This document shows, piece by piece, positions 16,713 to 52,612 of a stretch of DNA of 64,000 nt. Where the stretch lies: contig NZ_JAPLET010000026.1 in the NCBI RefSeq assembly GCF_026391055.1, positions 186,001 through 250,000 on the forward strand, read 5' to 3'. The notes under the pieces were generated by a model, which saw only the letters and a program-made list of their open reading frames with translations, was not told the origin of the DNA and searched no databases. Made by a program: the position numbers and the translations under genes. Origin of the DNA: Spirosoma sp. Lineage in GTDB: Bacteria > Bacteroidota > Bacteroidia > Cytophagales > Spirosomataceae. Position 1 is the first letter of the stretch, and each line of letters starts with the position of its first letter.

Positions 16713-16748
16713 TGTTCATCAGCGGACAGCCATGTACGATTTCGGACA
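16713..16748 (+). promoter_or_regulatory. Tandem palindromic sites, cassette 1 (putative enhancer sites)
   Basis: Two 16-bp sites, TGTTCATCAGCGGACA (16713-16728) and TGTACGATTTCGGACA (16733-16748), start 20 bp apart. They fit the window consensus TGTCCR-N4-YGGACA. The second ends 55 bp before the -24 element. The layout resembles activator sites for a sigma-54 enhancer-binding protein; a PadR operator is the alternative. Confidence 0.65.
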
Positions 16749-16802
16749 AACCACATTTTATAGAATCTGCGTCTGCAAGCTGGATAGGCTGTTTATGAGA
16801 GT

Positions 16803-16817
16803 TGGCAAAGCATTTGT
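16803..16817 (+). promoter_or_regulatory. Sigma-54-like promoter of padR1-P1-P2
   Basis: TGGCAAAGCATTTGT has GG and GT separated by 10 bp, close to the RpoN pattern TGGCAC-N5-TTGC. It is 45 bp upstream of the padR1 start codon. The last base of the canonical GC is T here. The same element precedes all five padR genes at comparable distance. Confidence 0.6.
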
Positions 16818-16847
16818 TCTACAAAAGTTAATCTTATTCTTTTCAGC

Positions 16848-17186
16848 ATGAAACGAACATACCTGGGTGAGTTTGAAGAACTGGTTTTACTGACGGTCGC
16901 GGTCCTGCACGAGGGAGCTTATGGAGTTGCTATCACCGACGAGCTGGAACGGCAAACCGGTCGCTCGGTGAGCATCAGCGCCGTTCACGCGGCCTTACAT
17001 AGGTTGGAAGAGAAAGGCATGCTCAAATCGCAGATGGGGGAAGCGACCGCCGAACGCGGTGGCCGACGGAAACGACTGTTTTCGGTTACCGCGCTGGGAA
17101 GCCGCGCGTTGCACGATATTCGGGCTATGCGCGACCAGTTGTGGGAGTCGATTTCGCCAAATGTCTTACCGACCCTTAGTATATGA
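16848..17186 (+). CDS. PadR-family transcriptional regulator (padR1)
   Basis: 112 aa, the short PadR form. The core begins KRTYLGEFEELVLLTVAVL, continues with VAITDELERQTGRSVSISAVHAALHRLEEKGML (recognition helix region), then the wing GGRRKRLFSVTALG and a dimerisation helix ending in LWESI. Its stop codon overlaps the start of P1 by four bases (ATGA), so translation is coupled. PadR proteins are usually repressors that respond to small hydrophobic ligands and often control transporters. The tight coupling to a prefix-domain permease is seen in four of five cases here in the same or near-same form. The target is not shown; autoregulation is plausible. Confidence 0.92.
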   Translation: MKRTYLGEFEELVLLTVAVLHEGAYGVAITDELERQTGRSVSISAVHAALHRLEEKGMLKSQMGEATAERGGRRKRLFSVTALGSRALHDIRAMRDQLWESISPNVLPTLSI

Positions 17187-22672: not shown

Positions 22673-22709
22673 CGTCCTATACCGTACAGATTTTGTCCGA
22701 TTCTGGACA
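22673..22709 (+). promoter_or_regulatory. Tandem palindromic sites, cassette 2
   Basis: CGTCCTATACCGTACA (22673-22688, degenerate) and TGTCCGATTCTGGACA (22694-22709) start 21 bp apart. The promoter-proximal copy is the closer match to consensus. It ends 64 bp before the -24 element at 22773. Confidence 0.65.
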
Positions 22710-22772
22710 ACCATAAAAAAGCAGATAACATAAAACATGTCCCCAAAGCCTTCTCAGATGGCTTTTATATTC

Positions 22773-22787
22773 TGGCAGGGCATTTGC
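22773..22787 (+). promoter_or_regulatory. Sigma-54-like promoter of padR2-P3-P4
   Basis: TGGCAGGGCATTTGC has the full GG-N10-GC spacing of an RpoN promoter, the best match of the six. It lies 43 bp upstream of the padR2 start codon. Confidence 0.68.
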
Positions 22788-22815
22788 TCAGCAAAAATAG
22801 AACTAATGAACTACT

Positions 22816-23154
22816 ATGAAACGGACCTACCTGGGCGAGTTTGAAGAGATTGTGCTGCTCACCGTGGCTGTGCTGGAAGGGCAGGCCTACGGGGTGGCGC
22901 TCACCCATGAAATCATTGAGCAGACAGGCCGGTCAGTTCGTCTGAATCAGATTCACGCGGCTCTGCAACGGCTGGAAGACAAAGGCATGGTGAAATCTGA
23001 AATGGGCGAACCCACCGCCGAACGTGGTGGTCGGAGGAAACGGCTATTTACGGTTACCGCCTATGGTCGGCGGACGTTGCAGGAAATTCAGGAAGTGCGC
23101 GTTAGTTTATGGAGCCGGCTGGTCAACCCCTTTAAACCCGTTACCAGTTTATGA
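22816..23154 (+). CDS. PadR-family transcriptional regulator (padR2)
   Basis: 112 aa, aligned end to end with padR1: KRTYLGEFEEIVLLTVAVLE, ALTHEIIEQTGRSVRLNQIHAALQRLEDKGM, ERGGRRKRLFTVTAYG, and a C-terminal helix ending LWSRL. The helix that should read DNA (SVRLNQIHAALQRL) differs from padR1 at several exposed positions (RLNQI against SISAV), so the two may not share operators. Its stop overlaps the P3 start by four bases. It is the first gene of the padR2-P3-P4 module, behind the best sigma-54-like element in the window. Confidence 0.92.
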   Translation: MKRTYLGEFEEIVLLTVAVLEGQAYGVALTHEIIEQTGRSVRLNQIHAALQRLEDKGMVKSEMGEPTAERGGRRKRLFTVTAYGRRTLQEIQEVRVSLWSRLVNPFKPVTSL

Positions 23155-28581: not shown

Positions 28582-29259
28582 ATGTTACGAAACTACATTA
28601 AAATTGCGATCAGGAATCTGCTCCGGTGCAAGTTCTATGCACTGCTCAACATTATTGGTCTAGCCGTTGGTATGACGTTCACGCTGCTTATTGGCAGCTA
28701 CATCTGGAGCCAATTACAGATAAATAACAGATTACGTAATGCCCCTAATCAATACATCATCCGCAGTAAATGGAAACAGCCCGGCTTGGGCTATGAAGAT
28801 GTAACGGTGGCTCCGCTAGGTATAACGCTGAAAGAAAAATACCCCGACTTAGTCGCTAATTATTACCGGTTCGACGTGCTCACGACCGCTATATCCAGCG
28901 GGAACAAGCACTTTGTTCGGGAAGTAGCCGAAGCAGATTACTCAGCCATGATATCCATGTTTGGTTTCACTATGCTGTATGGCGATGCCCGAACATCCCT
29001 CAAGGCGCCAAATTCAGTGGTGATTACGGAAGAAAACGCTTTAAAGTATTTTGGCAAAACGGATGTACTTGGACAAGTGCTGAACCTGAGCAACTATACA
29101 GGCAGTAAGCAGGAATTTGTGGTAACAGGCGTATTGAAAAATCTGCGAAAAAACTCGGTTACATACCTGTGGGATTTGCCGGTAAATGTCTTCATTGAAG
29201 AGAGTGAAATAAGTGGAGTGAGTACAATAAGTGCAGTCCCGGTCACCGAGTACGTTTAA
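28582..29259 (+). pseudogene. Truncated FtsX-type permease remnant
   Basis: 225 codons encode only the N-terminal part of a prefix-less permease: MLRNYIKIAIRNLLRCKFYALLNI, TM1 (GLAVGMTFTLLIGSYIW) and most of the first periplasmic domain up to VVTGVLKNLRKNSVTYLW. Family resemblance stops there; the last ~20 residues (ESEISGVSTISAVPVTEYV) match no paralogue, and no FtsX core follows. Full relatives are about 785 aa. A 12-bp inverted repeat (29213-29224 and 29294-29305) brackets the break, which may mark a deletion or insertion scar. The promoter region is intact, so a short membrane-anchored periplasmic fragment could still be made. Called a pseudogene because all transport segments are gone. 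Confidence 0.75.
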
Positions 29260-30256: not shown

Positions 30257-30293
30257 TGTCCAGATGCGTACAGCCGGTGTCCAGAAACGGACA
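30257..30293 (+). promoter_or_regulatory. Tandem palindromic sites, cassette 3
   Basis: TGTCCAGATGCGTACA (30257-30272) and TGTCCAGAAACGGACA (30278-30293) start 21 bp apart, only 8 bp after the HxlR stop. The second ends 64 bp before the -24 element at 30357. Confidence 0.7.
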
Positions 30294-30312
30294 AGTCACC
30301 AATCTTCGTAAC

Positions 30313-30353
30313 AACAAAAAGTGCCATTTCTAACCGGAATGGCACTTTTTGTT
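30313..30353 (+). terminator. Intrinsic terminator between cassette-3 sites and promoter
   Basis: AACAAAAAGTGCCATT (30313-30328) pairs perfectly over 16 bp with 30338-30353, with a 9-nt loop and a TTTTT stretch in the 3' arm. It ends the hxlR transcript but stands between the tandem sites and the -24/-12 element, insulating padR3 from read-through. Confidence 0.85.
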
Positions 30354-30356
30354 ATT

Positions 30357-30371
30357 TGGCCGGGCATTTGT
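30357..30371 (+). promoter_or_regulatory. Sigma-54-like promoter of padR3-P5
   Basis: TGGCCGGGCATTTGT keeps the GG-N10-G spacing, with T replacing the final C. It is 43 bp upstream of the padR3 start, as in cassette 2. Confidence 0.6.
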
Positions 30372-30399
30372 TATACATATACACAACTAATGAACGACC

Positions 30400-30726
30400 A
30401 TGAAGGGGACCTACCTGGGCGAGTTTGAAGAAGTGGTACTACTGGCAGTGGCCATCCGGTCGGGAGATGCGTATGGAGCGGCTATTGTCACAGAGATTGA
30501 GCAGCAAATGAGCCGCTCAGTAAACCTGGGTGCCGTCCACTCCGCCCTGAATCGGCTGGCCGAAAAAGGGCTAGTGACATCAGCACTAGGTGGTGTAACA
30601 ACCGAACGTGGTGGACGGCGAAAGCGGTTGTACTCGGTTACGGCAGCTGGACAGCGGGCATTGCAGGAAGTTCGGCAACTGCGCAATCAGATGTGGGAAG
30701 CCATTCCAAACACGGCCTGGTCATGA
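30400..30726 (+). CDS. PadR-family transcriptional regulator (padR3)
   Basis: 108 aa, slightly shorter at the C-terminus than its paralogues. Core: KGTYLGEFEEVVLLAVAIRS, AAIVTEIEQQMSRSVNLGAVHSALNRLAEKGLV, ERGGRRKRLYSVTAAG, ending LRNQMWEAI. The usual QTGRSV before the recognition helix is QMSRSV here. The stop codon overlaps the P5 start by four bases. It heads a two-gene module, padR3-P5. The local promoter, sites and coupling match the other modules, so it should belong to the same regulon. Confidence 0.92.
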   Translation: MKGTYLGEFEEVVLLAVAIRSGDAYGAAIVTEIEQQMSRSVNLGAVHSALNRLAEKGLVTSALGGVTTERGGRRKRLYSVTAAGQRALQEVRQLRNQMWEAIPNTAWS

Positions 30727-33323
30727 AAACGTCCCCACCGCGCTGGGCTACGCGCCTGCTGTATCTCGTTTGTGCGCCCAATAGAATAGATGAGTTGGAA
30801 GATGATTTAAACGAACTGTTCTACGAACGAATTGAGTCGGTGGGTCTGCGCCAGGCCCGGTGGCGGTACATAAAAGACGTGTTAAGTCTAGTGCGACCCA
30901 GTCTAGTGCGACCCAGTCTAGTGCGGCCCAGTCTACTGCGACCCAGTCTACTGCGTCCTTCTCTCATCAAACGTCAGGAATCATTCTACCCGAAACAGAC
31001 CAGTATGACTATGCTACGTAATTATCTGAAAATAGCGTTCAGAAACCTTACCAAGAACAAAGCCTATTCAGCGATCAACATCACTGGCCTGTCGATAGGC
31101 ATGGCCTGTAGTTTACTGATTGGCTTATGGGTACTAGATGAATTCAACGTCAATAAGGGCTATAAGGATGGCGACCGAATTTACTTTATCCGGCTGACAG
31201 ATGGTATCTCTACCAGCGAGATTATGCCAGGCCCACTGGCGGCAGCACTCAAAAAAGATATTCCTGCCGTTGAAAAAGTCACAAAGTTTACGGTTTGGAG
31301 CAACGATTTCCTGCTCAATGCAGGTCAGCAAAGCAGTAAGAAAACTGGCATCTATGCAACCGAAGACTTTTTCGATATTTTCCAATATCCAGTTTTACAA
31401 GGTAACCCTAGTCTTGCGATTCAGTTACCGAACAGCATTATTATCACTCGAAATACAGCCCAGACGCTTTTTGGACGTATCGACGCGGTAGGACAGACGC
31501 TTCGACTTAACAACGATAAATATTACCGTATTGGCGCGGTCATCGATAATGTTCCAGCCAACTTATCCGTTCAGTTCGACTGGATTGTCAACTTTACAGT
31601 TTCTGAAGAAGACTGGATGAAAACGTGGGGTAGCCGTTCTTTTCTAACCTATGTAAAACTTAAACCCAACACGACGCAGAGCCAGGCAGAAGCCAGCATG
31701 AAAGGTATACTGAAACGGTATATACCCGATAATAAGGAAATCCCTGTGCTGCAACCCATTGGCGATACGTATCTATACGGGAATTATATAAATGGTAAAC
31801 CAATGGGTGGGCGTATTAGCTATGTGCAAACGTTTACTCTGGTAGGCCTGCTTATCTTGCTTATTGCCTGCGTCAACTTCATGAACCTGAGCACGGCCCG
31901 TTCGGCCAAACGGGCCAAAGAAGTGGGTGTTCGGAAAGTGGTGGGCGCTAGTCGCTGGGCGCTGGCAGGGCAATTTTTTGGGGAATCAATATTGCTGAAT
32001 TTAGTCGCTGCCATAGTCGCCGTTCTTCTGGTGATCAGCTTATTGCCTGGTGTCAATCAGGTTGTTGATAAGCATCTGTCTATCGACCTCTTATCCCCAA
32101 TGATCTGGTTCTATTTAGTGATTCTTGTTGGTGTTACGAGCCTACTGGCCGGTATTTATCCGGCTTTGTTTTTATCGGCTATGCAGCCAGCCAAGGTTCT
32201 TAAGGGAGTTTTTGCGAAAGTTTCAGCAGGTGCTACCTTCCGTAAATCACTGGTCGTCTTTCAATTTTCGTTGTCGTTGTTCTTCATTATCGGTATGCTC
32301 ATTATCGGTCGGCAAATGGCGTATATCCGAACGAAGCAATTAGGTCTCGACCGACAAAATATCATTCACCTACCGGTAGAAGGTGAGTTGCGGGGTAAAA
32401 TGGAAACGCTTCGACAGGAGCTGCAACGATCAAATGCGATTCGTTCAGTGACTACAGTGGGCGAGCTTCCCATCCAAATCGGGAGTACGACCAGTCTGAA
32501 CTGGCCGGGAAAAGATGCCAAACGGGACGGTAGCGTTACCACAATGAAAGTGGGGCTCGATTTCGCCAAAACGCTCGATATCCAGTTTGTTGCCGGACAT
32601 GATTTTGGGCCAGCCGATACAATGAACTGCATTGTTAACGAATCGACCGTGCGGATGATGAATCTAAAAAACCCGGTTGGCACCGAGATCAACAAAGGTC
32701 ATATCATTGGCGTTGTGCGGGATTTCCATACCAGTTCGTTCCATGACCCTATTCGTCCGTTATTACTGACCTACTACCCTAAATGGACGAACGATTTCCT
32801 GATAAAGACAAGTCCCGGAAAAATGACCGAAGCACTTACAATCATCGAGCAGCTAACGCATCAACTTAACCCTGGCTATCCGTTTACGTACCACTTCCTG
32901 GACGAAACATACGAAAAACTATATCGAAGTGAAACATTGGTCAACAGGCTTATTAATTTTTTTGGTGTGCTGGCTATTCTTATATCGTGCCTGGGTCTGT
33001 TCGGTCTTGCCACGTTCAGTGCCGAGCAGCGGACCAAAGAAATTGGCGTTCGCAAGGTGCTTGGGGCATCGGTGAGTAGTATAGTCGCACTTCTCTCTAA
33101 AGACTTCCTAAAACTAGTTCTGCTAGCTATTGTCATCGCGTCACCGATTGCCTGGTATGCGATGACCAAATGGCTTCAGAACTTTACTTACAAGATTGAC
33201 ATTGAGTGGTGGATGTTCATGCTGGCGAGTTTACTAGCGGTTGGGATTGCTTTACTCACCGTTGGTTTCCAGAGCATTAAAACTGCATTGATAAATCCGA
33301 TAAAAAGTCTGCGAAGCGAGTAG
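30723..33323 (+). CDS. FtsX/MacB-type ABC permease with divergent prefix and repeated linker (P5)
   Basis: The ATG at 30723 overlaps the padR3 stop and gives 866 aa. The prefix domain is the most divergent of the set: PPRWATRLLYLVCAPNRIDE, LEDDLNELFYERIESVG, RYIKDVLSLVRPS. Directly after it, residues ~55-79 repeat (V/L)RPSL five times, from a 15-bp DNA tandem repeat, where paralogues have one RPxxIKRQ. TM1 is ITGLSIGMACSLLIGLWVLDE. The cores read LILLIACVNFMNLSTARSAKRAKEVGVRKVVGAS and CLGLFGLATFSAEQRTKEIGVRKVLGAS. The end is NPIKSLRSE. Base composition is more AT-rich than in P1-P4. It sits upstream of the AT-rich island. Confidence 0.9.
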   Translation: MKTSPPRWATRLLYLVCAPNRIDELEDDLNELFYERIESVGLRQARWRYIKDVLSLVRPSLVRPSLVRPSLLRPSLLRPSLIKRQESFYPKQTSMTMLRNYLKIAFRNLTKNKAYSAINITGLSIGMACSLLIGLWVLDEFNVNKGYKDGDRIYFIRLTDGISTSEIMPGPLAAALKKDIPAVEKVTKFTVWSNDFLLNAGQQSSKKTGIYATEDFFDIFQYPVLQGNPSLAIQLPNSIIITRNTAQTLFGRIDAVGQTLRLNNDKYYRIGAVIDNVPANLSVQFDWIVNFTVSEEDWMKTWGSRSFLTYVKLKPNTTQSQAEASMKGILKRYIPDNKEIPVLQPIGDTYLYGNYINGKPMGGRISYVQTFTLVGLLILLIACVNFMNLSTARSAKRAKEVGVRKVVGASRWALAGQFFGESILLNLVAAIVAVLLVISLLPGVNQVVDKHLSIDLLSPMIWFYLVILVGVTSLLAGIYPALFLSAMQPAKVLKGVFAKVSAGATFRKSLVVFQFSLSLFFIIGMLIIGRQMAYIRTKQLGLDRQNIIHLPVEGELRGKMETLRQELQRSNAIRSVTTVGELPIQIGSTTSLNWPGKDAKRDGSVTTMKVGLDFAKTLDIQFVAGHDFGPADTMNCIVNESTVRMMNLKNPVGTEINKGHIIGVVRDFHTSSFHDPIRPLLLTYYPKWTNDFLIKTSPGKMTEALTIIEQLTHQLNPGYPFTYHFLDETYEKLYRSETLVNRLINFFGVLAILISCLGLFGLATFSAEQRTKEIGVRKVLGASVSSIVALLSKDFLKLVLLAIVIASPIAWYAMTKWLQNFTYKIDIEWWMFMLASLLAVGIALLTVGFQSIKTALINPIKSLRSE
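30885..30959 (+). repeat. 15-bp minisatellite, five units, in the P5 linker
   Basis: Units of AGTCTAGTGCGACCC start at 30885, 30900, 30915, 30930 and 30945. Units 3 to 5 have one to three substitutions. The unit length is a multiple of three, so copy-number change would lengthen or shorten the RPSL linker without a frameshift. Confidence 0.9.
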
Positions 33324-33371: not shown

Positions 33372-34220
33372 ATGTTTAAAACAATTTCCATATCATCTCT
33401 AATCAACCAACCCGATAAAGACGTTTTCTTTTGGATAGATCGATTTGAGGATATGGAAGAACCTGACAATTTGGTTTTCCCGCATAAGCATAATTTCTAT
33501 GAGATTTTATGGATTACAAGTGGTAATAGTAAACAAACTATTGATTACATCGACTATGAAATAAAAGCAGATACATTGTTCTTCATTTCGCCAGGCCAAT
33601 TGCATTTGTTTGAAGAATGGGAAGATATTAAAGGCTATTGCGTCCTATTCGAGGAACATTATTTTCTTCAGCTATTTCAAAATAAAAATATACTTTTCGA
33701 ACTAGTGTACCTCGACAATCTATATGCAAATCCCTTTTTGACAATAGACAATAATGCCAAGTTAAAACTTGAACCAATCATTAACCTACTACGAAAAGAA
33801 AAGTCAAGCCAAACAATTCAGGCGCTATTATTTATTCTTTTAAAACAGATACAAAGCTTATATACCACTAATCAAATTCTTACAGCCTCAACACATCAGG
33901 TTGTGCTTTTCAAACGTTTCAGAAGTCTGGTTGATGAAAATTTCGGCAAAAATTGGGCATTAACTCAATACGCTAATCAGCTAAATATTACAGCCCACAA
34001 TTTGAATAGTATTGTCAAATCAGTATGCAACAAAACAGCAAGTGATATTATTAAAGAACGTATTTTGCTGGAAGCTAAACAACTTTTACAGTTTTCAGAC
34101 GATACAATAGCTGAAATAACCAATAGGCTAGGCTTCGAAGACAGCAGTTACTTTGCTCGCTACTTCAAAAAACACACGTCAGCTTCACCAATGGAGTTCA
34201 GGAAACAATATCTACGATAA
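33372..34220 (+). CDS. AraC-family transcriptional regulator
   Basis: 282 aa. The N-terminal half is a cupin-type sensor domain: FPHKHNFYEILWITSG, DTLFFISPGQLHLFEEWEDIKGYCVLFEEHYF. The C-terminal ~100 residues have the two AraC helix-turn-helices: ALTQYANQLNITAHNLNSIVKS, ERILLEAKQLLQFSDDTIAEITNRLGFEDSSYFARYFKKHTSASPMEFRK. AT-rich codon use (many AAA, ATT, TTA) sets it and the next four genes apart from the permeases. It stands 82 bp before the methyltransferase gene, a plausible first target. No effector can be inferred. Confidence 0.93.
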   Translation: MFKTISISSLINQPDKDVFFWIDRFEDMEEPDNLVFPHKHNFYEILWITSGNSKQTIDYIDYEIKADTLFFISPGQLHLFEEWEDIKGYCVLFEEHYFLQLFQNKNILFELVYLDNLYANPFLTIDNNAKLKLEPIINLLRKEKSSQTIQALLFILLKQIQSLYTTNQILTASTHQVVLFKRFRSLVDENFGKNWALTQYANQLNITAHNLNSIVKSVCNKTASDIIKERILLEAKQLLQFSDDTIAEITNRLGFEDSSYFARYFKKHTSASPMEFRKQYLR

Positions 34221-34302
34221 GTACCGAAAATCCTCACATTTGTCCTGACAAGTCAGTTATTATGGCTTTTACATTTGCATTGTAACTAACTCAATGTAAA
34301 TA

Positions 34303-34881
34303 ATGCCATCCAAGAATACGACAAAAGACTTTTTAGATAATCAACGAAGTCATTGGCAGGATTGGAATATTCCTTATTCCGACGGCGAAGCGTTGTACAA
34401 ACTTATTGTCGAAAATAATTTTACATCTGTTTTGGAAATTGGCACATCTTCCGGACATTCTACCATCTGGCTGTCTTATGCAATGCAGCAAACCGGTGGA
34501 AAAGTTACTACGATCGAGATAGATCAAACCCGTTACAATAAAGCAATCAAGAATTTTGAGTTAGCTGGCGTCTCTAATTTGATTGACGCCAGGCTTGGCG
34601 ATGCATTACACATAATACCCACCTTAACTGAAACATTTGATTTTATCTTTTCCGATGCAACCTTAACCATTCAACCCAAAGAAAGTTACCTACTTTTTTT
34701 TAAAGCGGCAGATCCAAAATTAAGGGTTAACGGACTATACACAATGCATAATGTTACTGATGGTTTTGGCGACGATGGTCGGTTTTTTAAGTATGTAGAT
34801 AATTTAGGTAACTATCAGACATCAATTATTAGAGCAAGTTCGGCGGGAATTTCTGTAAGTAAAAAAATTAAATCAAGATGA
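34303..34881 (+). CDS. Class I SAM-dependent O-methyltransferase-like protein
   Basis: 192 aa. SAM motif I is VLEIGTSSGHSTIWLSYAM (about residues 44-62), followed by the acidic ribose-binding TTIEIDQTRYNKA, and an LGDALHIIPTL loop with FDFIFSDATLTIQPKESYLLFF. The layout is that of catechol/caffeoyl-CoA-type O-methyltransferases, which usually have a DADK motif after the fourth strand; here it is SDAT, so metal use and substrate may differ. Its stop overlaps the start of the next gene by four bases (ATGA). It is part of a compact four-gene run after AraC. The substrate is unknown; a small hydroxylated aromatic is a guess from family alone. Confidence 0.82.
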   Translation: MPSKNTTKDFLDNQRSHWQDWNIPYSDGEALYKLIVENNFTSVLEIGTSSGHSTIWLSYAMQQTGGKVTTIEIDQTRYNKAIKNFELAGVSNLIDARLGDALHIIPTLTETFDFIFSDATLTIQPKESYLLFFKAADPKLRVNGLYTMHNVTDGFGDDGRFFKYVDNLGNYQTSIIRASSAGISVSKKIKSR

Positions 34882-35315
34882 TCACTCTAACCGAAAGCGT
34901 CCTCGTAAATGCACCTAAAGATGAGGTATTTGAAAAATTAATCAATCCTCAAGAGCAGTTGAAATGGAATACATTATACATAGAAGTCTCCATCGAACCG
35001 AAAGGCGAAATTAAGAATGGAACAGTAATGACCGGGAAGTTTAAAGGGTCTGGTAAAGCAACCGTACATTTCGAAAATGTCATCCCAAATCAGGAGTTTA
35101 CCCATTATTCGAAACTAATGATGTTTAACCTGATCTATCTGGGAGAATTTCACCACAACTACAAAGTAGAAGATGTAAGCGGCAAAACTAAATTTACACA
35201 AACCGTTTTTCTAGAACCAAAAGGAATAGGCAAGTTACTACAAAGCACGCTGGTTAACAGTTTTAAAAAACGAATGCCCGAAAGTTTTGAGGAATTCAAA
35301 AAATACATCGAGTAA
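34878..35315 (+). CDS. SRPBCC (START-like) family protein
   Basis: 145 aa. The START-like hydrophobic-cavity fold is suggested by the opening ITLTESVLVNAPKDEVFEKL, the core TVMTGKFKGSGKATVHFENVIPNQEFTHYS and the long C-terminal helix LLQSTLVNSFKKRMPESFEEF. Such proteins bind small hydrophobic ligands such as polyketides or lipids, and some catalyse cyclisation or ligand transfer. The four-base overlap with the methyltransferase gene implies coupled expression. The next gene starts 15 bp on. Role in the run is unknown. Confidence 0.83.
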   Translation: MITLTESVLVNAPKDEVFEKLINPQEQLKWNTLYIEVSIEPKGEIKNGTVMTGKFKGSGKATVHFENVIPNQEFTHYSKLMMFNLIYLGEFHHNYKVEDVSGKTKFTQTVFLEPKGIGKLLQSTLVNSFKKRMPESFEEFKKYIE

Positions 35316-35329
35316 AAAAACAAAATAAG

Positions 35330-36124
35330 ATGAAAGAAATTTTTACTGCGTTCGCAATGACCTTTTTGACAGCTACCAGCTTCGCACAATCAGGTAATCA
35401 GGCCAAATCAAATAAAAATATGAGAATCGTTTTTGTAGTATCCAATCAAGTAAAGTCAGAAACTACAGGTTACCCAATTGGGTTTTGGCTAAGTGAATTA
35501 GCACAACCTTTTTATGAATTTCAGGAGGTTGGTTACGAAGTTACTATTGCTTCGCCCGATGGCGGAAAAATTATTTTTGACAGCTGGAGTGATCCAGAAA
35601 GTCCTAATGCAAGGGAACTGGACCTAATAAGTACAGGTTTTAAACACCATCCAAAAACAGTTGCTTTGATGGAAAACACGGTTAAACTGGATGAAATAAA
35701 AGCTGAAAATTTTGATGGAATTTTTGTAGTCGGCGGCCTGGGACCCATGCAGACGTTTTACAATAATGAAAAGCTACACAAATTATTTGCCCAGTTTTAT
35801 CAGGCAGGAAAGGCATCGGCAACCATCTGTCATGGCTCATCTATTTTGTTAAAAACAAAACTAAGCGACGGTAAATTACTAGCCGAAGGAAAGAAATGGA
35901 CAGGCTTTTGTAATGCCGAAGAAGATATAGTTGATAAAACGGCCAAGAAGAAAATGCAACCTTTTCGGATTGAAGATGAAGCTAAGAAATTAAATACCAA
36001 TTACGTGACAGGCAAAAACCCTTATAGTTCTTTTGCCGTTGCTGATGGAAACTTAATCAGTGGTCAGCAGGGGAGCAGCGGTGCAGAAACTGCTAAATTG
36101 GTTATTAACTATTTGAAGAGATAA
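35330..36124 (+). CDS. Exported DJ-1/PfpI family protein (Hsp31/glyoxalase III-like)
   Basis: 264 aa. A signal peptide (MKEIFTAFAMTFLTATSFAQ) precedes the domain. The flavodoxin-like core starts MRIVFVVSNQV. Glu in TGYPIGFWLSELAQPFYEF and the nucleophile Cys in ATICHGSSILL form the DJ-1-type site, and the length and GFWLSE motif resemble the Hsp31/glyoxalase III subgroup more than small PfpI peptidases. Candidate roles are methylglyoxal detoxification or amidase/hydrolase activity in the periplasm. The stop codon shares one base with the start of the next gene, and both products carry signal peptides, so they may act together outside the cytoplasm. Confidence 0.87.
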   Translation: MKEIFTAFAMTFLTATSFAQSGNQAKSNKNMRIVFVVSNQVKSETTGYPIGFWLSELAQPFYEFQEVGYEVTIASPDGGKIIFDSWSDPESPNARELDLISTGFKHHPKTVALMENTVKLDEIKAENFDGIFVVGGLGPMQTFYNNEKLHKLFAQFYQAGKASATICHGSSILLKTKLSDGKLLAEGKKWTGFCNAEEDIVDKTAKKKMQPFRIEDEAKKLNTNYVTGKNPYSSFAVADGNLISGQQGSSGAETAKLVINYLKR

Positions 36125-37110
36125 TGAAACAACTGTTTTTAAATGTGATAGTCTCTCTTGGGGCTATCACGTTTTCATTTAGCCAAAACGACATAATGAA
36201 TTATAATCTGGAAAAAGTAAGCTTCAAAAGCCATGGTACCCGAGTAGTTGGTTTTTTAGGCAATCCCGGCACAAAATCACCAAAACCTGCAGTTGTAATC
36301 TTAGGGCCTATATGTTCTGTAAAAGAAATGTCACCAATACAGTATGCAACCAGGCTTGCAAAATTAGGTTTTGTTACACTTTGCTTTGACGCTCGAAATT
36401 TTGGCGAAAGTGATGGAACGCCCAGGCAGTTTGAAAGCCTGAAATTAAAAGAAGAAGATATAAAGTCGGCTGTTGATTATTTGATTTCAAATAAGGAGGT
36501 AGATACTAATAAACTATTTCTGTTAGGCATCTGCAATGGAACAAACGAAATAATTTCAGTTGCTACAGAAGACAAACGAATAAAAGCTATCAGTTTAGTT
36601 TCGGGCAATTACCTTATTAAAGAAAATATGGTTCATTTGTTGGGTGACGAAACTATCTGGAATACTCATTTACAAAGAGCCAGGCTTGCCAAAGAAAAGT
36701 TTGACAAAAAAAGGGAAGTCCAATATATAAAAATCATTGACAATACAAGTACCGATCAGCTATTGCCACAGTTACCTATTTATGAGTGGTATCATCCCTG
36801 GGAAAATAAAGCCCCTTATTTTGGTTTTCGTGGAGGCTGGAAAAACGAAGTAACAGCCATGTCAGAATGGGAAACCTTAAACTTTAATGCACTGGATTTC
36901 TCCCGAGAACTACGTGTACCAACATTATTAATCCACGGCGAAATGAGCGATGGTGGTTATGAGTACGCAAAGCGTATTTTTAATAGCATTCCAACTAAAA
37001 ACAAAAAAGCTATCTGGGAGGATAAAATTATTCATTTTCAGTACTACGAAGATGCGAGCGTGATTGATAGAGCCACTGAAAATATAGCACACTGGTTTAA
37101 TCAGTATTAA
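36124..37110 (+). CDS. Exported alpha/beta hydrolase with GxCxG nucleophile elbow
   Basis: 328 aa with a signal peptide (MKQLFLNVIVSLGAITFSFS). Alpha/beta hydrolase landmarks: AVVILGPICSVKEM near the oxyanion region, LGFVTLCFDARNFGESDGTP, the nucleophile elbow LLGICNGTNE and a C-terminal VPTLLIHGEMSDGGYEYAKRI with a His in IIHFQYYED. The elbow residue is Cys, as in dienelactone hydrolases, not the usual Ser. That may reflect substrate choice or loss of activity. It follows the DJ-1-like gene with a one-base overlap and is the last gene of the AT-rich run. Substrate unknown. Confidence 0.82.
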   Translation: MKQLFLNVIVSLGAITFSFSQNDIMNYNLEKVSFKSHGTRVVGFLGNPGTKSPKPAVVILGPICSVKEMSPIQYATRLAKLGFVTLCFDARNFGESDGTPRQFESLKLKEEDIKSAVDYLISNKEVDTNKLFLLGICNGTNEIISVATEDKRIKAISLVSGNYLIKENMVHLLGDETIWNTHLQRARLAKEKFDKKREVQYIKIIDNTSTDQLLPQLPIYEWYHPWENKAPYFGFRGGWKNEVTAMSEWETLNFNALDFSRELRVPTLLIHGEMSDGGYEYAKRIFNSIPTKNKKAIWEDKIIHFQYYEDASVIDRATENIAHWFNQY

Positions 37111-37471
37111 GTGTTACATAAGTTGGACAGATAAATAAATTGACAAAATGCGAACATCTGGCAAGGTATTGACAAAAAAAGAATTAATATATTTTGCTGA
37201 GCCAACAAAAGGTGTTGAATCGAACGGACGGCCCCGATTTTTAATTCTGTTGAGATATAGCCCTAAAAATCTGCTACTGCATCAGCCCAAAAATCGTTGA
37301 GTATTTTTATCTTTGGCTTTTATCAGGTCTGTTCATACAAAAGAATAGCCTTTCATTCAACGACGCCCCTTTCCCACCACTAGATCTTCCGATAAACCCT
37401 GCGTATAGCCTTTCGATGGGCAAAATAACTTAATCCGTTACCTCTGACCTTGCGCAGAAATTTTAGAAAAG
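37111..37471. other. 361-bp AT-rich intergenic stretch
   Basis: No credible gene. Two TTGACA-like hexamers lie near 37138 and 37178. TACCTCTG at 37440-37447 is a plausible -7 element for the AraC gene starting at 37472. No terminator hairpin was recognised after the hydrolase. The stretch marks the change from the AT-rich run to genes of more typical composition. Confidence 0.4.
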
Positions 37472-38353
37472 ATGCAGAATAAGGCCAGACCCATTCCCGT
37501 CGTCTCTATGGTAGACGAGTTTGGTGCAGGTATTGCCATTGAGAAAACATACCTTCCCGATTTACCCATCGTGGATAAAGCAACGTTGACTTCTTTTGAC
37601 GAAGCTTACCAAGCACACCGGCACGAGGGTCATTCGTTCTTCCTGCTGGAAACCGGAACAATTACCATTGAAATTGACTTTCAAACGCTTGTGATACGAT
37701 CGCCGACGGTCATCTACGTTCATCCCGATCAGGTACATCGAACCCTGGCCGCTGAAAATGTAACCGTCAGCGCCTTGACAATCAGTAACGAAAACCTAAA
37801 TCCCGTTTATCTGAAACTGCTTGACGATATCACACCCGCCAAACCGCTCGTCTTGGCCAACGAAACGCTCTTTATCATTTCAGACTCGGTATCACTTTGC
37901 ACAAAATTATCCGAACGCGAAAATGATAAACTATACCATTCCATGTTGAAAGATAGTTGCAACGCCTTGGTAGCATTCGTTATTTCACAGTATCTGGAGC
38001 AAGCTGAGTCAGCAGGCAAACTTTCACGAGTTGAAACAATTACCAAAGATTTTCGCAAACTTCTGGAACGTCACTACGCTACGCTCAAACGCCCTACGGA
38101 ATATGCTCAGACGCTACATCTGTCTACGCCTTACCTGAACGAATGCGTCAAAAACACGACAGGTCATTCCGTTTCACACCACATACATCAGCGTATCATT
38201 CTGGAAGCCAAACGGTTGCTATATCACTCCGACAAATCGGTGAAAGAAATTGCGTCTGATTTAGGGTATGATGATTACCCGTATTTTTCGCGGTTGTTCA
38301 CCAAGCTTACCCAGATGACTCCATTGACCTTTCGTAACAAAAACCGCGATTAG
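37472..38353 (+). CDS. AraC-family transcriptional regulator (second)
   Basis: 293 aa. The N-terminal cupin-like part has HRHEGHSFFLLETGTITIEI and VIYVHPDQVHRTL. The C-terminal DNA-binding part reads RPTEYAQTLHLSTPYLNECVKNTTGHSVSHHIHQRIILEAKRLLYHSDKSVKEIASDLGYDDYPYFSRLFTKLTQMTPLTFR, a full double helix-turn-helix. It is only distantly similar to the AraC protein at 33372. It sits 77 bp upstream of a flavin monooxygenase gene on the same strand and is the obvious candidate regulator of that gene. In Bacteroidota such AraC-oxidoreductase pairs often respond to xenobiotics; effector unknown. Confidence 0.93.
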   Translation: MQNKARPIPVVSMVDEFGAGIAIEKTYLPDLPIVDKATLTSFDEAYQAHRHEGHSFFLLETGTITIEIDFQTLVIRSPTVIYVHPDQVHRTLAAENVTVSALTISNENLNPVYLKLLDDITPAKPLVLANETLFIISDSVSLCTKLSERENDKLYHSMLKDSCNALVAFVISQYLEQAESAGKLSRVETITKDFRKLLERHYATLKRPTEYAQTLHLSTPYLNECVKNTTGHSVSHHIHQRIILEAKRLLYHSDKSVKEIASDLGYDDYPYFSRLFTKLTQMTPLTFRNKNRD

Positions 38354-38430
38354 TCCAATACTTACTTTGTATTGGCATTTCCCGACCCTGCTACGCGCTG
38401 TTCCTTTGTGCCAACGAAAATCACAAAGCA

Positions 38431-39552
38431 ATGGACTCGTTTAATGAAAAAAAAGTGCTCGTTACGGGCGCAAGCATAGCCGGTCTGTCAACCGCCTATT
38501 GGATGAACAAACTTGGGTATAAGGTCACTGTAGTTGAAATGGCCAGCGAACCCCGAACGGCCGGTGCGGCTATTGATATACGCGGAACTACCATAGCCAT
38601 CGCCAAACGTATGGGCATTTTTGAGCCGTTAGCATCGAACAGATTGACGGTGGACTTAATTGAATTTAAACAGGCTGACGATAGCACAGCAGGTTCGATC
38701 GTATTGAAAGATCAACGCGGAGAACTTCCCAATGATGATATCGAAATTGAACGGGATACGTTCATAACTATTCTGATTGAGAAGTTAAAAGGCGAAGTTG
38801 AATTTAGCTTCAATAACAGCATTACGGCGCTTAGTGAAACAGAAAACGATATAACTGCTACGTTTAAGGATGGTTCGCAACGGTCATTCGATCTGGTGTT
38901 AGGCTGCGACGGTTCACATTCGGGTGTACGAAAAATCTGGTTCGGCCACGAAACAGAATACAGTTATTTTCTCAAAGCCTATTTTTCGATCACCATCGTC
39001 AATAAATTGTTAATAAATGAAAGAACGATGCAGTTATATAATGTGCCGGATAAGGCCATTACACTGAATGCATACAACAATAAAACCGACGTAATTTTTA
39101 GTTTCTTTTCTGAAACCGAGATTCCTTATGATTATCGTGCTATCGACCAACAACGAAAAATCATTTTGGAACAGTTTGCCGGACAGGGCTGGCGAACCGA
39201 AGAATTACTGGAAGAAGTGCAGCACTCGCACAAAATGTACTTCGATAAATTCTGCCAGATAAAAATGCCATCGTGGACAAAAGGTAGAGTGGCGTTGGTG
39301 GGTGATGCCGGTTACTGCGCGTCGCCCGCAGCCGGAATGGGTGCATCGTTGGCGATGGAAGGGGCAGCCGCTCTGGCAGATGCCTTACAAAAACACAACG
39401 GAAATTTTGAGGGAGCGTTTCAGGATTACAATAAAAACCTGCGTCCATTTATTGAGCAAGTCCAGGCCACAGCGGAATTGAATGTACGAGAAAATTTTAT
39501 TCCAAGAACCGAAGAAGCTATTCGCAAGAGAAACGCACTACAAGAGTTTTAG
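38431..39552 (+). CDS. FAD-dependent aromatic monooxygenase (group A flavoprotein)
   Basis: 373 aa. The dinucleotide-binding start is VLVTGASIAGLSTAYWMNKLGY (GxSxxG variant), the DG motif is LVLGCDGSHSGVRKIWFG near residue 160, and the FAD-ribityl GD motif is RVALVGDAGYCASPAAGMGASLAMEGA near 290. Together these are diagnostic for the PHBH/TetX fold. The enzyme should use NAD(P)H and oxygen to hydroxylate a small aromatic or polycyclic compound in the cytoplasm. TetX-like tetracycline or rifamycin inactivation is possible but cannot be claimed from motifs. TTCCTTTG upstream is a reasonable -7 element. It is paired with the AraC gene before it. Confidence 0.9.
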   Translation: MDSFNEKKVLVTGASIAGLSTAYWMNKLGYKVTVVEMASEPRTAGAAIDIRGTTIAIAKRMGIFEPLASNRLTVDLIEFKQADDSTAGSIVLKDQRGELPNDDIEIERDTFITILIEKLKGEVEFSFNNSITALSETENDITATFKDGSQRSFDLVLGCDGSHSGVRKIWFGHETEYSYFLKAYFSITIVNKLLINERTMQLYNVPDKAITLNAYNNKTDVIFSFFSETEIPYDYRAIDQQRKIILEQFAGQGWRTEELLEEVQHSHKMYFDKFCQIKMPSWTKGRVALVGDAGYCASPAAGMGASLAMEGAAALADALQKHNGNFEGAFQDYNKNLRPFIEQVQATAELNVRENFIPRTEEAIRKRNALQEF

Positions 39553-39612
39553 AATAGATGCCGTTTAGCGTCTTCATGAAAAACAACCCGCCGAAGTTGC
39601 GCCGGAAAGCCC

Positions 39613-39648
39613 TGTCCGAATACGTACATGTCAGTACGCATTCGGACA
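39613..39648 (+). promoter_or_regulatory. Tandem palindromic sites, cassette 6, upstream of padR-less P6-P7
   Basis: TGTCCGAATACGTACA (39613-39628) and AGTACGCATTCGGACA (39633-39648) start 20 bp apart and are also inverted copies of one another (14 of 15). The distance to the -24 element is 55 bp, as in cassette 1. Confidence 0.68.
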
Positions 39649-39702
39649 TTTCCCCTGCCCAAACTCCTCGTAACCAGCTATCTGTCAGAGTCTTTACGTT
39701 AC

Positions 39703-39717
39703 TGGCATGACTTTAGT
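39703..39717 (+). promoter_or_regulatory. Weak sigma-54-like element upstream of P6
   Basis: TGGCATGACTTTAGT keeps TGGCA and the GG-N10-GT spacing but loses part of the GCATTTG block. It is 84 bp before the ATG of P6. Its bases would also encode WHDFS in an open frame that resembles the end of a prefix domain, so it may be partly a coding relic. Confidence 0.4.
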
Positions 39718-39786
39718 GTATTCATACGCACGAATTATCTGACGGCAAGGGCAGTACCGAAATCCCAGATCAACGCTTATAAAACT

Positions 39787-42168
39787 ATGGTCCGCAACTA
39801 CGTAAAAATTGCCTGGCGAAACCTTGTTCGCAACAAAGCTTTCTCTGGCATCAACTTGGCAGGACTTACCCTGGGCATGACGTGTAGTCTGCTCATTTTA
39901 CTCTGGGTGCAGGACGAACGGAATGTAGATGGTTTTCACGCCAACGACAAGCATCTATACCAGATATATGAACGCCAGCATTTCGATGGAAAAGTGTATG
40001 CCAGCTATTTTACCCAGGGCTTACTGGCTGATGAACTAAAGAACACCATTCCTGAAGTACAATATGCCAGTAGCCTGGAGTGGCCTTACAGTACCACCTT
40101 CGAAGCTGGTGATAAAATCAATAAACTGAACGGGACATTTGCCGGAGCCGATTTTTTCAAGATGTTCAGCTATCCCTTCTTGCAGGGTACCCCGGCTACA
40201 GCACTGAGTCGTCCGGGCGGCATAGCCATCTCGCGCAACATGGCCGAACAGTTTTTTGGCAGCCCCGAAAAGGCTATGGGTAAATCCATCCGGTACGAAA
40301 ACAAAGAAGATTTACAGATAACAGCCGTCTTCGAAAACCTACCCGCTAACTCGTCGGTACAATTTGATTATCTGAGGCCCTGGATCGACTTCTTCAAGGA
40401 TAACGAATGGGCAAAAACCTGGGGCAGCACAGACCCCGTCACCTATGTGCAGCTACGCGCCGATGGCGCGGGGCAGCCAGCCGACGCGGCTCGCGTAGAA
40501 GCTAAAATCAAGGATTTTCTGTATCGGTACATACCAAAAACCAAAGGCTTTCTAGTTGAACTGGGCTTGCAGCCTTACCCGGAAAAGTACCTTCACTCGA
40601 CCTTTAAAGATGGGTATCTGGATGGCGGCCGGATTGAGTATGTGCGTTTGTTCAGTATCGTAGCCATTTTCATTCTGCTCATTGCCTGCATCAACTTCAT
40701 GAACTTGAGTACGGCTCGTTCGGCTAAACGGGCCAAAGAAGTGGGTGTTCGGAAAGTGATCGGAGCCGCGCGGTTATCGTTGATGGGACAGTTTGTTGGC
40801 GAGGCCATGCTGCTCACCATCCTGTCAATGTGTGTCGCCCTGATACTGGTAGCCACCCTACTCCCCGCCTTTAACACCCTCACAGGTAAAATGCTGGCGT
40901 TGCCGGTCAATGACCCTGTTTTCTGGATAAGTTTATTGGGTCTACTCCTTCTGACGGGCTTTGTAGCGGGTAGTTATCCGGCGCTCTTTCTATCGTCGCT
41001 CAATCCCATTCGGGTGTTAAAAAGCAGCCTAAAATTCAGTTCGGGAGCAACCTTTTTCCGGCAGGGCTTGGTTGTCTTTCAGTTTGGCCTGTCGATTTTG
41101 CTTATTGTTGGCACAATCGTCATTTACCAACAGATGAATTATGTTCAGACGGCAAATCTTGGATTTAACCGCGAGAATTTGGTTTATGTACCCATCGAAG
41201 GCGATTTAATGGTCAAATACGACCTCTTCAGAGAAAAAGCGGGGAAGATCGCTGGTGTTTCGATGGTATCCCGCATGCGGGAATCCCCAACCGGCATTGG
41301 TCACCACGTCGATGATATTAGCTGGTCGGGAAAAGACCCGAATTTGAGAACAGCTTTTGCCAATACGGCCGTTGGCTACGACTTTGTCAAGACCCTGAAT
41401 CTTCAGTTGAAGGAAGGGCGGGATTTTTCGAGAGACTACGGTACGGACTCGCTGGGGTTCATGATTAACGAAACGGCTTTGGCTAAAATCGGCTATAAGA
41501 ACCCGATTGGTAAGCCGCTGAACTGGGGGGGAGTGCACGGCACCATCATTGGCGTCCTGAAAGATTTTCACTTCAACTCCATGCGTCAATCCATTGAGCC
41601 ATTGATCATTCGACTGGACCCTAAACCCAGATGGGGCACGATTCTGGTCCGTACCGAAGCGGGCCAAATCAAAGAAGCCATCACGGGTCTGGAAAAGCTT
41701 TGCACCGAGTTGAACCCTAAAACGCCCTTCACCTACCAGTTTTCCGATCAGGAATACGCAAAACTGTACCGGAGCGAACAAGTTGTCAGCCAGTTGGCTA
41801 ATTGCTTCGCGTTGCTGGCTATTTTCATCTCGTGCCTGGGTTTGTTTGGTCTGGCCACCTTCACCGCCGAGCAGCGCACCAAAGAGATTGGCGTTCGGAA
41901 AGTGCTGGGGGCATCGATTGCCAGTGTCGTTGCCCTGCTCTCCAAAGATTTTCTAAAGCTGGTACTGATTGCCATTGTGATGGCTTCCCCCATTGCGTGG
42001 TGGGCGATGAATCAATGGCTGCAAAACTTTATGTACAAAGTCGATATTGAGTGGTGGGTCTTTGCGGTGGCAGGCATACTAGCCATTGGTATTGCCTTAT
42101 TGACCGTCAGCTTCCAAAGTATCAAAGCGGCCCTGACAAATCCGGTGAAGTCGTTGAGAAGCGAGTAG
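39787..42168 (+). CDS. FtsX/MacB-type ABC permease without prefix domain (P6)
   Basis: The ATG at 39787 (MVRNYVKIAWRNLVRNKAFS) marks the start of the conserved permease body and gives 793 aa. The open frame extends back to 39628, but that part overlaps the cassette-6 sites and promoter. TM1: LAGLTLGMTCSLLILLWVQDE. Cores: FILLIACINFMNLSTARSAKRAKEVGVRKVIGA and CLGLFGLATFTAEQRTKEIGVRKVLGAS. End: NPVKSLRSE. It has no padR of its own, yet its upstream region keeps the tandem sites seen before the padR genes. P7 follows 154 bp later and a terminator follows P7, so P6-P7 are probably one operon. No ATPase is nearby. Confidence 0.9.
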   Translation: MVRNYVKIAWRNLVRNKAFSGINLAGLTLGMTCSLLILLWVQDERNVDGFHANDKHLYQIYERQHFDGKVYASYFTQGLLADELKNTIPEVQYASSLEWPYSTTFEAGDKINKLNGTFAGADFFKMFSYPFLQGTPATALSRPGGIAISRNMAEQFFGSPEKAMGKSIRYENKEDLQITAVFENLPANSSVQFDYLRPWIDFFKDNEWAKTWGSTDPVTYVQLRADGAGQPADAARVEAKIKDFLYRYIPKTKGFLVELGLQPYPEKYLHSTFKDGYLDGGRIEYVRLFSIVAIFILLIACINFMNLSTARSAKRAKEVGVRKVIGAARLSLMGQFVGEAMLLTILSMCVALILVATLLPAFNTLTGKMLALPVNDPVFWISLLGLLLLTGFVAGSYPALFLSSLNPIRVLKSSLKFSSGATFFRQGLVVFQFGLSILLIVGTIVIYQQMNYVQTANLGFNRENLVYVPIEGDLMVKYDLFREKAGKIAGVSMVSRMRESPTGIGHHVDDISWSGKDPNLRTAFANTAVGYDFVKTLNLQLKEGRDFSRDYGTDSLGFMINETALAKIGYKNPIGKPLNWGGVHGTIIGVLKDFHFNSMRQSIEPLIIRLDPKPRWGTILVRTEAGQIKEAITGLEKLCTELNPKTPFTYQFSDQEYAKLYRSEQVVSQLANCFALLAIFISCLGLFGLATFTAEQRTKEIGVRKVLGASIASVVALLSKDFLKLVLIAIVMASPIAWWAMNQWLQNFMYKVDIEWWVFAVAGILAIGIALLTVSFQSIKAALTNPVKSLRSE

Positions 42169-47113: not shown

Positions 47114-47145
47114 CAAGCCAGCCCGATCATCGTCGGGCTGGCTTG
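47114..47145 (+). terminator. Hairpin after the M3 peptidase gene
   Basis: CAAGCCAGCCCGA (47114-47126) pairs perfectly with 47133-47145, with loop TCATCG. The 3' arm overlaps the first two bases of the cassette-4 distal site (47144). No T-run follows directly. Confidence 0.75.
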
Positions 47146-47181
47146 TCCGTTTTACGGACATATGCTGTCCACAAACGGACA
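47144..47181 (+). promoter_or_regulatory. Tandem palindromic sites, cassette 4
   Basis: TGTCCGTTTTACGGACA (47144-47160, 17 bp, 7-bp perfect arms) and TGTCCACAAACGGACA (47166-47181) start 22 bp apart. They are the strongest palindromes of the set. The second ends 64 bp before the -24 element at 47245. Confidence 0.72.
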
Positions 47182-47244
47182 GTTGATTTTACCATCATAC
47201 TGTAATTATTCCCATTCTGAGCAATTAAAGCACTTTTCGCTAGT

Positions 47245-47259
47245 TGGCACCGCATTTGT
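47245..47259 (+). promoter_or_regulatory. Sigma-54-like promoter of padR4-P8
   Basis: TGGCACCGCATTTGT includes the full TGGCAC of the RpoN -24 box, with GT in place of GC at -12. It lies 44 bp before the padR4 start codon. Confidence 0.63.
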
Positions 47260-47288
47260 TCGACATTATCGTATAAAATCAATCGGGT

Positions 47289-47627
47289 ATGAAACGAACC
47301 TTTCTGGGAGAGTTTGAGGAAGTAGTTTTACTAACGGTGGCCGTCCTGGGCGATGAGGCTTATGGCGTCACCATCACACAGGAGATCGAGCAGCGAACCG
47401 GGCGGTCCGTTGGCTTCAGTACCGTACATACGACCTTGCAACGTTTGGCAGAAAAAGGCTATTTATCGTCGGAGATGGGTGGTGCCACAGCTGAGCGGGG
47501 TGGTAGACGAAAACGTTTTTTCAGCGTAACAGCCGCCGGACGGAGAGCTTTACAGGAAGTGAAGCAGGTACGCGAGGAGCTATGGAGCGCGTTACCTCCG
47601 CAAACGCTGCAATTGATGGGAGGATAA
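47289..47627 (+). CDS. PadR-family transcriptional regulator (padR4)
   Basis: 112 aa: KRTFLGEFEEVVLLTVAVLG, VTITQEIEQRTGRSVGFSTVHTTLQRLAEKGYL, ERGGRRKRFFSVTAAG, ending EELWSAL. In the HTH region, the recognition segment (GFSTVHTTLQRL) differs from padR1-3. Unlike padR1-3, the stop codon does not overlap the next start; P8 begins 10 bp later. It heads the padR4-P8-serine hydrolase module. Confidence 0.92.
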   Translation: MKRTFLGEFEEVVLLTVAVLGDEAYGVTITQEIEQRTGRSVGFSTVHTTLQRLAEKGYLSSEMGGATAERGGRRKRFFSVTAAGRRALQEVKQVREELWSALPPQTLQLMGG

Positions 47628-52109: not shown

Positions 52110-52146
52110 TGTCCGCTTGTGTCCGCTCCCTGTCCGTTTTTGGACA
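52110..52146 (+). promoter_or_regulatory. Tandem sites, cassette 5 (distal site degenerate)
   Basis: The proximal site TGTCCGTTTTTGGACA (52131-52146) fits consensus. The distal one, 21 bp upstream at 52110, keeps only the TGTCCG half. The proximal site ends 65 bp before the -24 element. Confidence 0.62.
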
Positions 52147-52166
52147 ACAGCTAGTAATAATCATTC

Positions 52167-52207
52167 AACGAAAAAGCCCTTCCCAGATTGGTAAGGGCTT
52201 TTTCGTT
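52167..52207 (+). terminator. Intrinsic terminator between cassette-5 sites and promoter
   Basis: AACGAAAAAGCCCTT (52167-52181) pairs perfectly with 52193-52207, with an 11-nt loop and a TTTTT run in the 3' arm. It ends the hydrolase transcript and lies only 3 bp before the -24 element at 52211, as in cassette 3. Confidence 0.87.
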
Positions 52208-52210
52208 CTT

Positions 52211-52225
52211 TGGCACTGCATTTGA
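52211..52225 (+). promoter_or_regulatory. Sigma-54-like promoter of padR5-P9-P10-P11
   Basis: TGGCACTGCATTTGA has a perfect -24 TGGCAC but GA at -12 instead of GC. It is 66 bp upstream of the padR5 start, about 22 bp farther than in cassettes 1-4. Confidence 0.55.
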
Positions 52226-52276
52226 CATACCGAAATAGATGAAATAAATAAAGTGTAGCGTCTTACCCTTTACCCC

Positions 52277-52612
52277 ATGCGACGAAGTGATTTAGGCGAG
52301 TTTGAAGAGGTCGTTCTGCTGGCCGTAGCCGTATTGACCCCCAAAGCTTATTCGGTGATGATTGCCGAAGAACTGGAACGGGAAACAGGTCAGACAGTTA
52401 GCACGGGTGCCGTTCATGCCGCCCTGCAACGGCTCGAACAGAAAGGTTACCTAAGTTCTGTACTGGGCGAGGCAACCGCCGAACGGGGTGGCCGCCGGAA
52501 ACGCATTTTTACCATAACAGCCCTGGGTGGGCGAGTGCTCAGCGAGGTTCAGGCAGTACGCACCCGGTTGTGGGATCGTATCATTCCAAATGTCCGACTA
52601 GAGTGGAGTTGA
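52277..52612 (+). CDS. PadR-family transcriptional regulator (padR5)
   Basis: 111 aa: RRSDLGEFEEVVLLAVAVLT, VMIAEELERETGQTVSTGAVHAALQRLEQKGYL, ERGGRRKRIFTITALG, ending LWDRII. The opening RRSDLGEF differs from KRTYLGEF of padR1 and padR2, and the GRSV of the recognition region is GQTV. The gap to P9 is 92 bp and holds a palindromic repeat, in contrast to the four-base overlaps of padR1-3. It heads the largest module, padR5-P9-P10-P11. Confidence 0.91.
   Translation: MRRSDLGEFEEVVLLAVAVLTPKAYSVMIAEELERETGQTVSTGAVHAALQRLEQKGYLSSVLGEATAERGGRRKRIFTITALGGRVLSEVQAVRTRLWDRIIPNVRLEWS

Follow-up and report, generated by a model that had tools for sequence, protein, structure and literature searches.

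A padR-less permease gene of Spirosoma lies behind a palindrome pair and a predicted sigma-54 promoter

The window analysed here is a 64-kb stretch (G000:C11:186001-250000) of the 8.0-Mb genome of a Spirosoma sp. and contains five padR genes, each followed by MacB_PCD/FtsX permeases bearing a prefix domain, which is matched 12 times in the genome with 9 of these matches inside the window. The permease P6 (39787-42168, + strand, as are P7, padR3, P5, the AraC-FAD cassette and the padR promoters described below, 793 amino acids, Pfam PF12704 and PF02687) gives no match to the prefix model NF038404, and the following permease P7 (42323-44680, 785 amino acids, assigned by Pfam and NCBIfam profiles), which is possibly co-transcribed with P6, is also without a prefix. 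Palindromic sites resembling those of the padR operons nevertheless lie upstream of P6, raising the question of what such sites do at a gene that has no padR. The absence of padR and prefix from P6-P7, described in the first-pass annotation, is borne out, with no padR gene or padR-like open reading frame found directly upstream of P6, neither of the two 5' frames of P6 (this genome and its sister G010) matching NF038404 even at E≤1, and P7 consisting of 785 residues with no prefix. A short permease open reading frame elsewhere in the window (P4b, 28582-29259, 225 amino acids) has an 802-residue homologue in G010 and G016.

The prefix-domain permease P5 (30693-33323, NF038404 E=2.2e-22) is now placed directly after padR3 (30400-30726, PF03551), and a cassette of an AraC-type regulator and a FAD monooxygenase (37472-39552, assigned by Pfam and also present in G010) separates P5 from P6. 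The linker between the P5 prefix and core (30900-30990) has a tandem RPSL-type repeat that is longer here than in G010. The cassette forms the end of a low-G+C island (33372-39552, G+C down to 0.37) encoding two AraC regulators, a methyltransferase, a polyketide-cyclase-like protein, a hydrolase, the FAD monooxygenase and, by eye, a DJ-1-like protein. Only the last AraC-FAD pair of this island is also at this place in G010, where the FAD gene is split, and homologues of the FAD gene are located elsewhere in 13 genomes besides these two.

The P6 sites are 16-bp palindromes of the type TGTCCG-N4-CGGACA, with UAS1 (TGTCCGAATACGTACA, 39613-39628) matching 11 and UAS2 (AGTACGCATTCGGACA, 39633-39648, 20 bp from UAS1) matching 10 of the 12 consensus positions. 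A -24/-12 box of the sigma-54 type (TGGCATGACTTTAGT, 39703-39717) begins 70 bp from the start of UAS2 with the form TGGC-N7-TAGT at 39703. Sigma-54 promoters are defined by GG at -24 and G at -12 at a canonical distance, and both elements are in register in the P6 box, for which the G010 counterpart is TGGCATGACTTTGGC. Two palindromes and a 55-bp spacing had been reported as retained at P6; the palindromes are confirmed, whereas the element approximately 55 bp on is the sigma-54 box and not a palindrome, and the gap of 54 nt from the end of UAS2 is common to P6 and padR1 only (63-64 nt in padR2-5).

The five padR promoters have the same architecture. In padR1 (16713-16817) the UAS start at 16713 and 16733 and the box at 16803, giving a distance from the UAS2 start to TGGC of 70 bp as in P6, and in the other four this distance is longer by approximately one helical turn: 79 bp in padR2 (22673-22787; UAS 22673 and 22694, box 22773), padR3 (30257-30371; UAS 30257-30272 and 30278-30293, box 30357-30371) and padR4 (47144-47259; UAS 47144 in a 17-bp form and 47166, box 47245), and 80 bp in padR5 (52110-52225; a weak UAS with 8/12 at 52110, UAS 52131, box 52211). 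An upstream dyad in fixed phase to the box is thus present at all six sites. Palindromes with at least 11/12 positions occur six times in the window, every one within the promoters of padR1-5 and P6, and with the half-sites moved 10 to 24 nt apart (TGTCCG-N10..24-CGGACA) there is one occurrence compared with 0.03 expected. A composite scan of both strands, requiring palindromes with at least 7 and at least 10 of 12 positions followed 64-85 bp on by TGGC with a G at -12, returned six sites, all on the + strand and preceding padR1-5 and P6, and returned none in 60 dinucleotide-shuffled windows. Between UAS and box, padR3 (30313-30353, z -4.5) and padR5 (52167-52207, z -8.2) carry, as DNA, a near-perfect terminator-like hairpin that may insulate the promoter from read-through; it is weaker at padR2 (z -1.95) and absent at P6, padR1 and padR4.

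The comparison with G010, where the P6 protein is 96% identical, shows the UAS and box together conserved at 46 of 49 bases (UAS1 14/16, UAS2 15/16, and 17/17 across 39698-39714) compared with 29/49 in the linker and 0/4 in the spacer between the palindromes; GTTACTGGCATGACTTT is identical in G010. The 60 bases before UAS1 (39553-39612) are 49/60 and the leader 51/72 identical, so the sites are not the only conserved part of the region, and this promoter is found in two genomes only. The -12 element reads TTTAGT here, TTTGGC in G010 and TTTG in the padR promoters, and it is therefore weaker here than in either and could be decaying.

It is probable that the palindrome pair is the upstream activating sequence of an NtrC-type enhancer-binding protein and that P6, together with P7, is under a sigma-54 promoter 54 bp downstream. 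A shared trans-acting activator had already been favoured in the first reading of the sequence, and the sigma-54 register, the presence of the sites before padR and padR-less genes alike and their presence beside an NtrC-type activator gene all point the same way.

Across the genus the promoters fall into two classes. The padR-type composite has 129 matches in 32 of 36 genomes (control, 0), and of these 30 were resolved as loci, leading to padR in 24, to a permease in 4 and to other genes in 2. Among 30 padR-type loci of a family-wide search, 14 lead to padR, 10 to a permease and 6 to other genes (one an ABC ATPase), and these loci show that the padR-type box also serves genes other than padR. 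The pattern combining TGGCATGAC with the UAS has 26 matches in 21/36 genus genomes (reversed control, 2), comprising 19 at an adaptor operon, 5 at padR-less permeases (P6 here and in G010, and one each in G011, G030 and G021) and 2 at unrelated genes, with two matches only in this genome, at P6 and at the efflux operon described below. Since none of the 26 leads to padR, the P6 promoter belongs with those of padR-less genes. In G010 the P6 promoter has the same UAS1 and the same TGGCATGACTTTGG as the permease promoters of G011 and G030, though the linkers have no detectable likeness. Against the 20 class members with 70-bp spacing, the mean linker identity is 20.7/54 for G010 P6 (shuffles 15.2, sd 3.2) and 18.2 for P6 of this genome, which shares 17/54 with the G030 promoter, the most alike in UAS1 and box. 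The linker identities do not show the P6 promoter to be a copy of one particular efflux or permease promoter.

The genome has a single sigma-54 match (PF04552) and 14 matches to enhancer-binding proteins (PF00158), eight of them strong. In stretches of 20-32 kb around each of the eight genes, a UAS with at least 11/12 positions occurs once, upstream of an adaptor-ATPase-four-permease operon located 2 kb from the activator gene G000:C15:556858-558225, with exactly 70 bp between UAS2 and box. Two further sites found at 10/12 fall inside a coding region (L001) and were counted as background. The activator combines a receiver with sigma-54 AAA+ and Fis HTH domains, and a histidine kinase gene (L069:210, HATPase and PAS) is located 2 kb beyond it. 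The adaptor layout recurs in 17 of the 20 relatives for which the activator neighborhood was fetched, followed immediately by genes for the adaptor (78-98% identical) and the ATPase (91-100%); the fetched stretches of G006, G073 and G042 contain neither gene, and in G006 the layout is present approximately 23 kb away. The first palindrome of the adaptor promoters is weak, with 7-10/12 positions in 17 of 18 and 11 in one. At E≤1e-5 the window encodes nothing related to the ATPase of the adaptor operon. Between UAS and box, the efflux-operon promoters (L187-L191, L194-L199, L201-L203, L205-L208 and L211) contain a TGATNATCA-like element with TTTA nearby, which may resemble an IHF site.

Within 150 genomes of the family the composite is present in 64, and an activator orthologue, at a cut-off of E≤1e-170 picked after viewing the table and counting one orthologue cut at a contig end, is present in 62/64 of these compared with 22/86 genomes without the composite. 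At a cut-off of 1e-120 the figures are 62/64 and 55/86, and by genus the activator occurs in 13/14 genera with the motif and 7/22 without. G059 (66% complete) and G153 have the motif with no activator at the cut-off, and some genomes, for example G013, have the activator and lack the strict pattern. A second enhancer-binding protein used as a control is itself enriched (54/64 with the composite, 31/86 without), so part of the co-occurrence is due to common descent. That the composite is real and is served by another of the eight enhancer-binding proteins is an unlikely reading, to which the correlative nature of linkage and co-occurrence, the parallel enrichment of the second activator and the presence of seven further activators lend some weight; no other activator stretch has a UAS of at least 11/12, and the second activator adjoins another MacAB-type operon, whose palindrome, TGTGCGAATTCGCACG, is not that of the UAS. 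This second NtrC-type activator-kinase pair (L070:9335-18126), whose neighboring operon is MacAB-TolC-like and has its own box TGGCACGCTGTTTGG, suggests a parallel second circuit.

Orthologues of P6 (at least 69%) occur in fifteen genomes, and the prefix domain is present in 13/13 of the close orthologues other than those of this genome and G010. In a tree of 22 cores (the 15 orthologues and 7 more distant matches) this genome and G010 are placed inside the prefixed clade, beside G016 (100/99) and then G023 and G032, which makes the prefix loss one event there; two more distant prefix-less cores (L037 and L041) form a second group. P6 lies within the padR3 operon, identified by synteny, in the three nearest relatives (G016, G023 and G032) and in G018, within the padR5 operon in G002 and G014, and behind a padR with padR4 as its best match in G034 and G020. 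Operon membership therefore shifts across the genus, with the three nearest relatives agreeing on padR3. The AraC-FAD cassette is not between padR3 and P6 in G016, G023, G032 or G018; in this genome and G010 padR3 heads P5, and the cassette, with approximately 4 kb more here, lies between P5 and P6. The P7 homologues of G010, G016 and G018 are reading frames of 785-796 amino acids with no room for a prefix, so that within the P6/P7 pair loss is seen for P6 only. P7 is upstream of padR3 in G018 and another gene lies between P6 and P7 in G016, and P6-P7 is not an ancient pair. The P5 prefix resembles that of G016 P6, and the padR3-operon permeases of G018 share the same type; P5 is a possible carrier of the old P6 prefix.

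The comparison of orthologous loci thus recovers a padR-prefix version of P6, together with sites conserved in G010, and the proposal that P6 lost padR and prefix by deletion is upheld for the ancestral prefix and fails for padR3, which persists 9.4 kb upstream. A peptide in the frame upstream of P6, RYWHDFSVFIR, had been taken as the possible end of a lost prefix domain. The sequence is present, yet its YWHDF core comes from in-frame translation of the conserved promoter block and the prefix HMM gives no match; the corresponding frame has two stops in G010, and the peptide is accordingly not a protein remnant. These results bear on the reading that an internal deletion removed padR and most of the prefix and left P6 behind its original padR promoter. 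The orthologues support an ancestral prefix and a former place in the padR3 operon, padR1 has an equal 70-bp spacing, and RYWHDF looks, by eye, like the ends of prefixes at a like distance before MxRNY, but padR3 and its promoter still exist upstream, the G010 stops and the missing HMM match stand against a remnant, and the P6 promoter with TGGCATGAC, 70 bp and no hairpin differs from padR3 promoters with TGGCNNNNCATTTG, 79 bp and a hairpin, leaving this reading very unlikely. It is just as doubtful that the sites before P6 have no function and are the remains of a promoter that travelled with the AraC-FAD cassette; the weak -12 element here, the cassette immediately upstream and the broken FAD gene of G010 would fit, and the far stronger conservation between the two species of UAS and box than of the linker argues against it.

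The padR operons may contain a further, local layer of control. In alignments of 3-8 genomes, a block that starts in the -12 box and extends through part of the leader is near-invariant within each padR family and differs between families (16803-16848, 22773-22816, 30357-30400, 47245-47289 and 52211-52277), that before padR3 (TTTGTTATACATATACACAACTAAT) being found in 6/6 genomes. These blocks are candidate PadR operators, judged from the alignments, and no such block is seen in the P6 leader between this genome and G010 (51/72 identical). PadR proteins commonly autoregulate, and all five window padR genes have palindromes, but the reading of the palindromes as PadR operators on which a PadR from elsewhere (padR1-5) acts at P6 in trans was rejected as their main meaning and is the most improbable considered, because many genomes have UAS-type pairs before the adaptor operon and before padR-less permeases, the pair and the sigma-54 box are in constant helical register, and the separate leader blocks, without an equivalent at P6 in either genome, are better operator candidates. 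The earlier suggestion that the sites are more than padR operators is in agreement with their occurrence before padR-less permeases and the adaptor operon.

In the mechanism proposed, P6-P7 would be transcribed from the sigma-54 promoter 54 bp below the UAS pair, with the response regulator G000:C15:556858-558225 as the most likely activator, binding the UAS and switching on a dispersed regulon in trans that would comprise the adjoining adaptor operon, the padR-prefix operons and permeases lacking padR, P6-P7 among them. PadR, sensed via the permease prefix, would repress the padR operons from an operator overlapping the -12 element and start. P6 was probably once a prefixed member of the padR3 operon that became separated from padR3 and lost its prefix before this species and G010 diverged, to come under a promoter of the padR-less class, and would now answer to the activator alone. 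More broadly, it is tentatively proposed from the gene arrangement that one two-component sigma-54 activator coordinates dispersed MacB-like permeases having no ATPase of their own with one adaptor-ATPase operon that would serve them in trans, padR-prefix pairs acting as local brakes. If true, prefix and brake are lost together, as in P6, or absent together, such permeases answer to a common signal alone, and P6 is a recent natural experiment separating the two control layers. Such permeases abound in these Bacteroidota, the candidate activator, site and padR-free variant open the control of the full set to direct tests, and the palindrome pair with its box provides a rule for finding further regulon members.

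The wider claim is limited by earlier work that had already connected sigma-54 with this permease class. The main text of PMC12316311 describes predicted sigma-54 promoters as enriched at FtsX-like permeases (COG0577), calling this the first evidence for the link. The class of permease with predicted sigma-54 promoters is that of P6; the enrichment differs in being at class level, with no UAS, activator or padR coupling in the text concerned, and the terms PadR and MacB are absent from the main text. The literature search returned no title or abstract on this UAS or on padR with sigma-54 at these permeases, none on Spirosoma with sigma-54 and no named regulator for these permeases, one of the searches being diluted by words beginning "padr". 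Neither the activator and its UAS site nor the two promoter classes or the history of P6 turned up in these searches, the known part being the link of sigma-54 to FtsX-like permeases (PMC12316311, main text).

The closest regulatory parallel is with NtrC-type sigma-54 promoters, which likewise combine a tandem dyad UAS, a -24/-12 box, an AAA+ activator with Fis-type HTH and receiver domains and a kinase nearby, whereas the UAS here are only 54-64 nt before the box and are shared by dispersed permease operons, several with an extra padR. The scanned permeases and PadRs have TIGR03434 and TIGR03433, the ADOP/padR_acidobact families, as their best NCBIfam matches, but P6 at 293.7 bits and P7 at 331.9 bits do not reach the curated TIGR03434 cut-off of 622.3. 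The HAAS-PadR dyad, in the part of PMC11237479 that treats it, is an N-terminal cytoplasmic helical domain fused to an FtsX/MacB_PCD permease beside a stand-alone PadR. The padR-prefix permeases of the window have a similar arrangement; their prefix is predicted to form three helices in a model of mean pLDDT 76.8, for which a fold search at E≤0.001 gave no match. In a difference with the dyad, none of the 12 prefixes matches HAAS/DUF1700-type Pfam models at E≤5, a threshold at which the HMMER filters drop most weak matches, and P6 has neither half of the pair. By analogy, the HAAS-PadR idea would account for the joint occurrence of prefix and padR.
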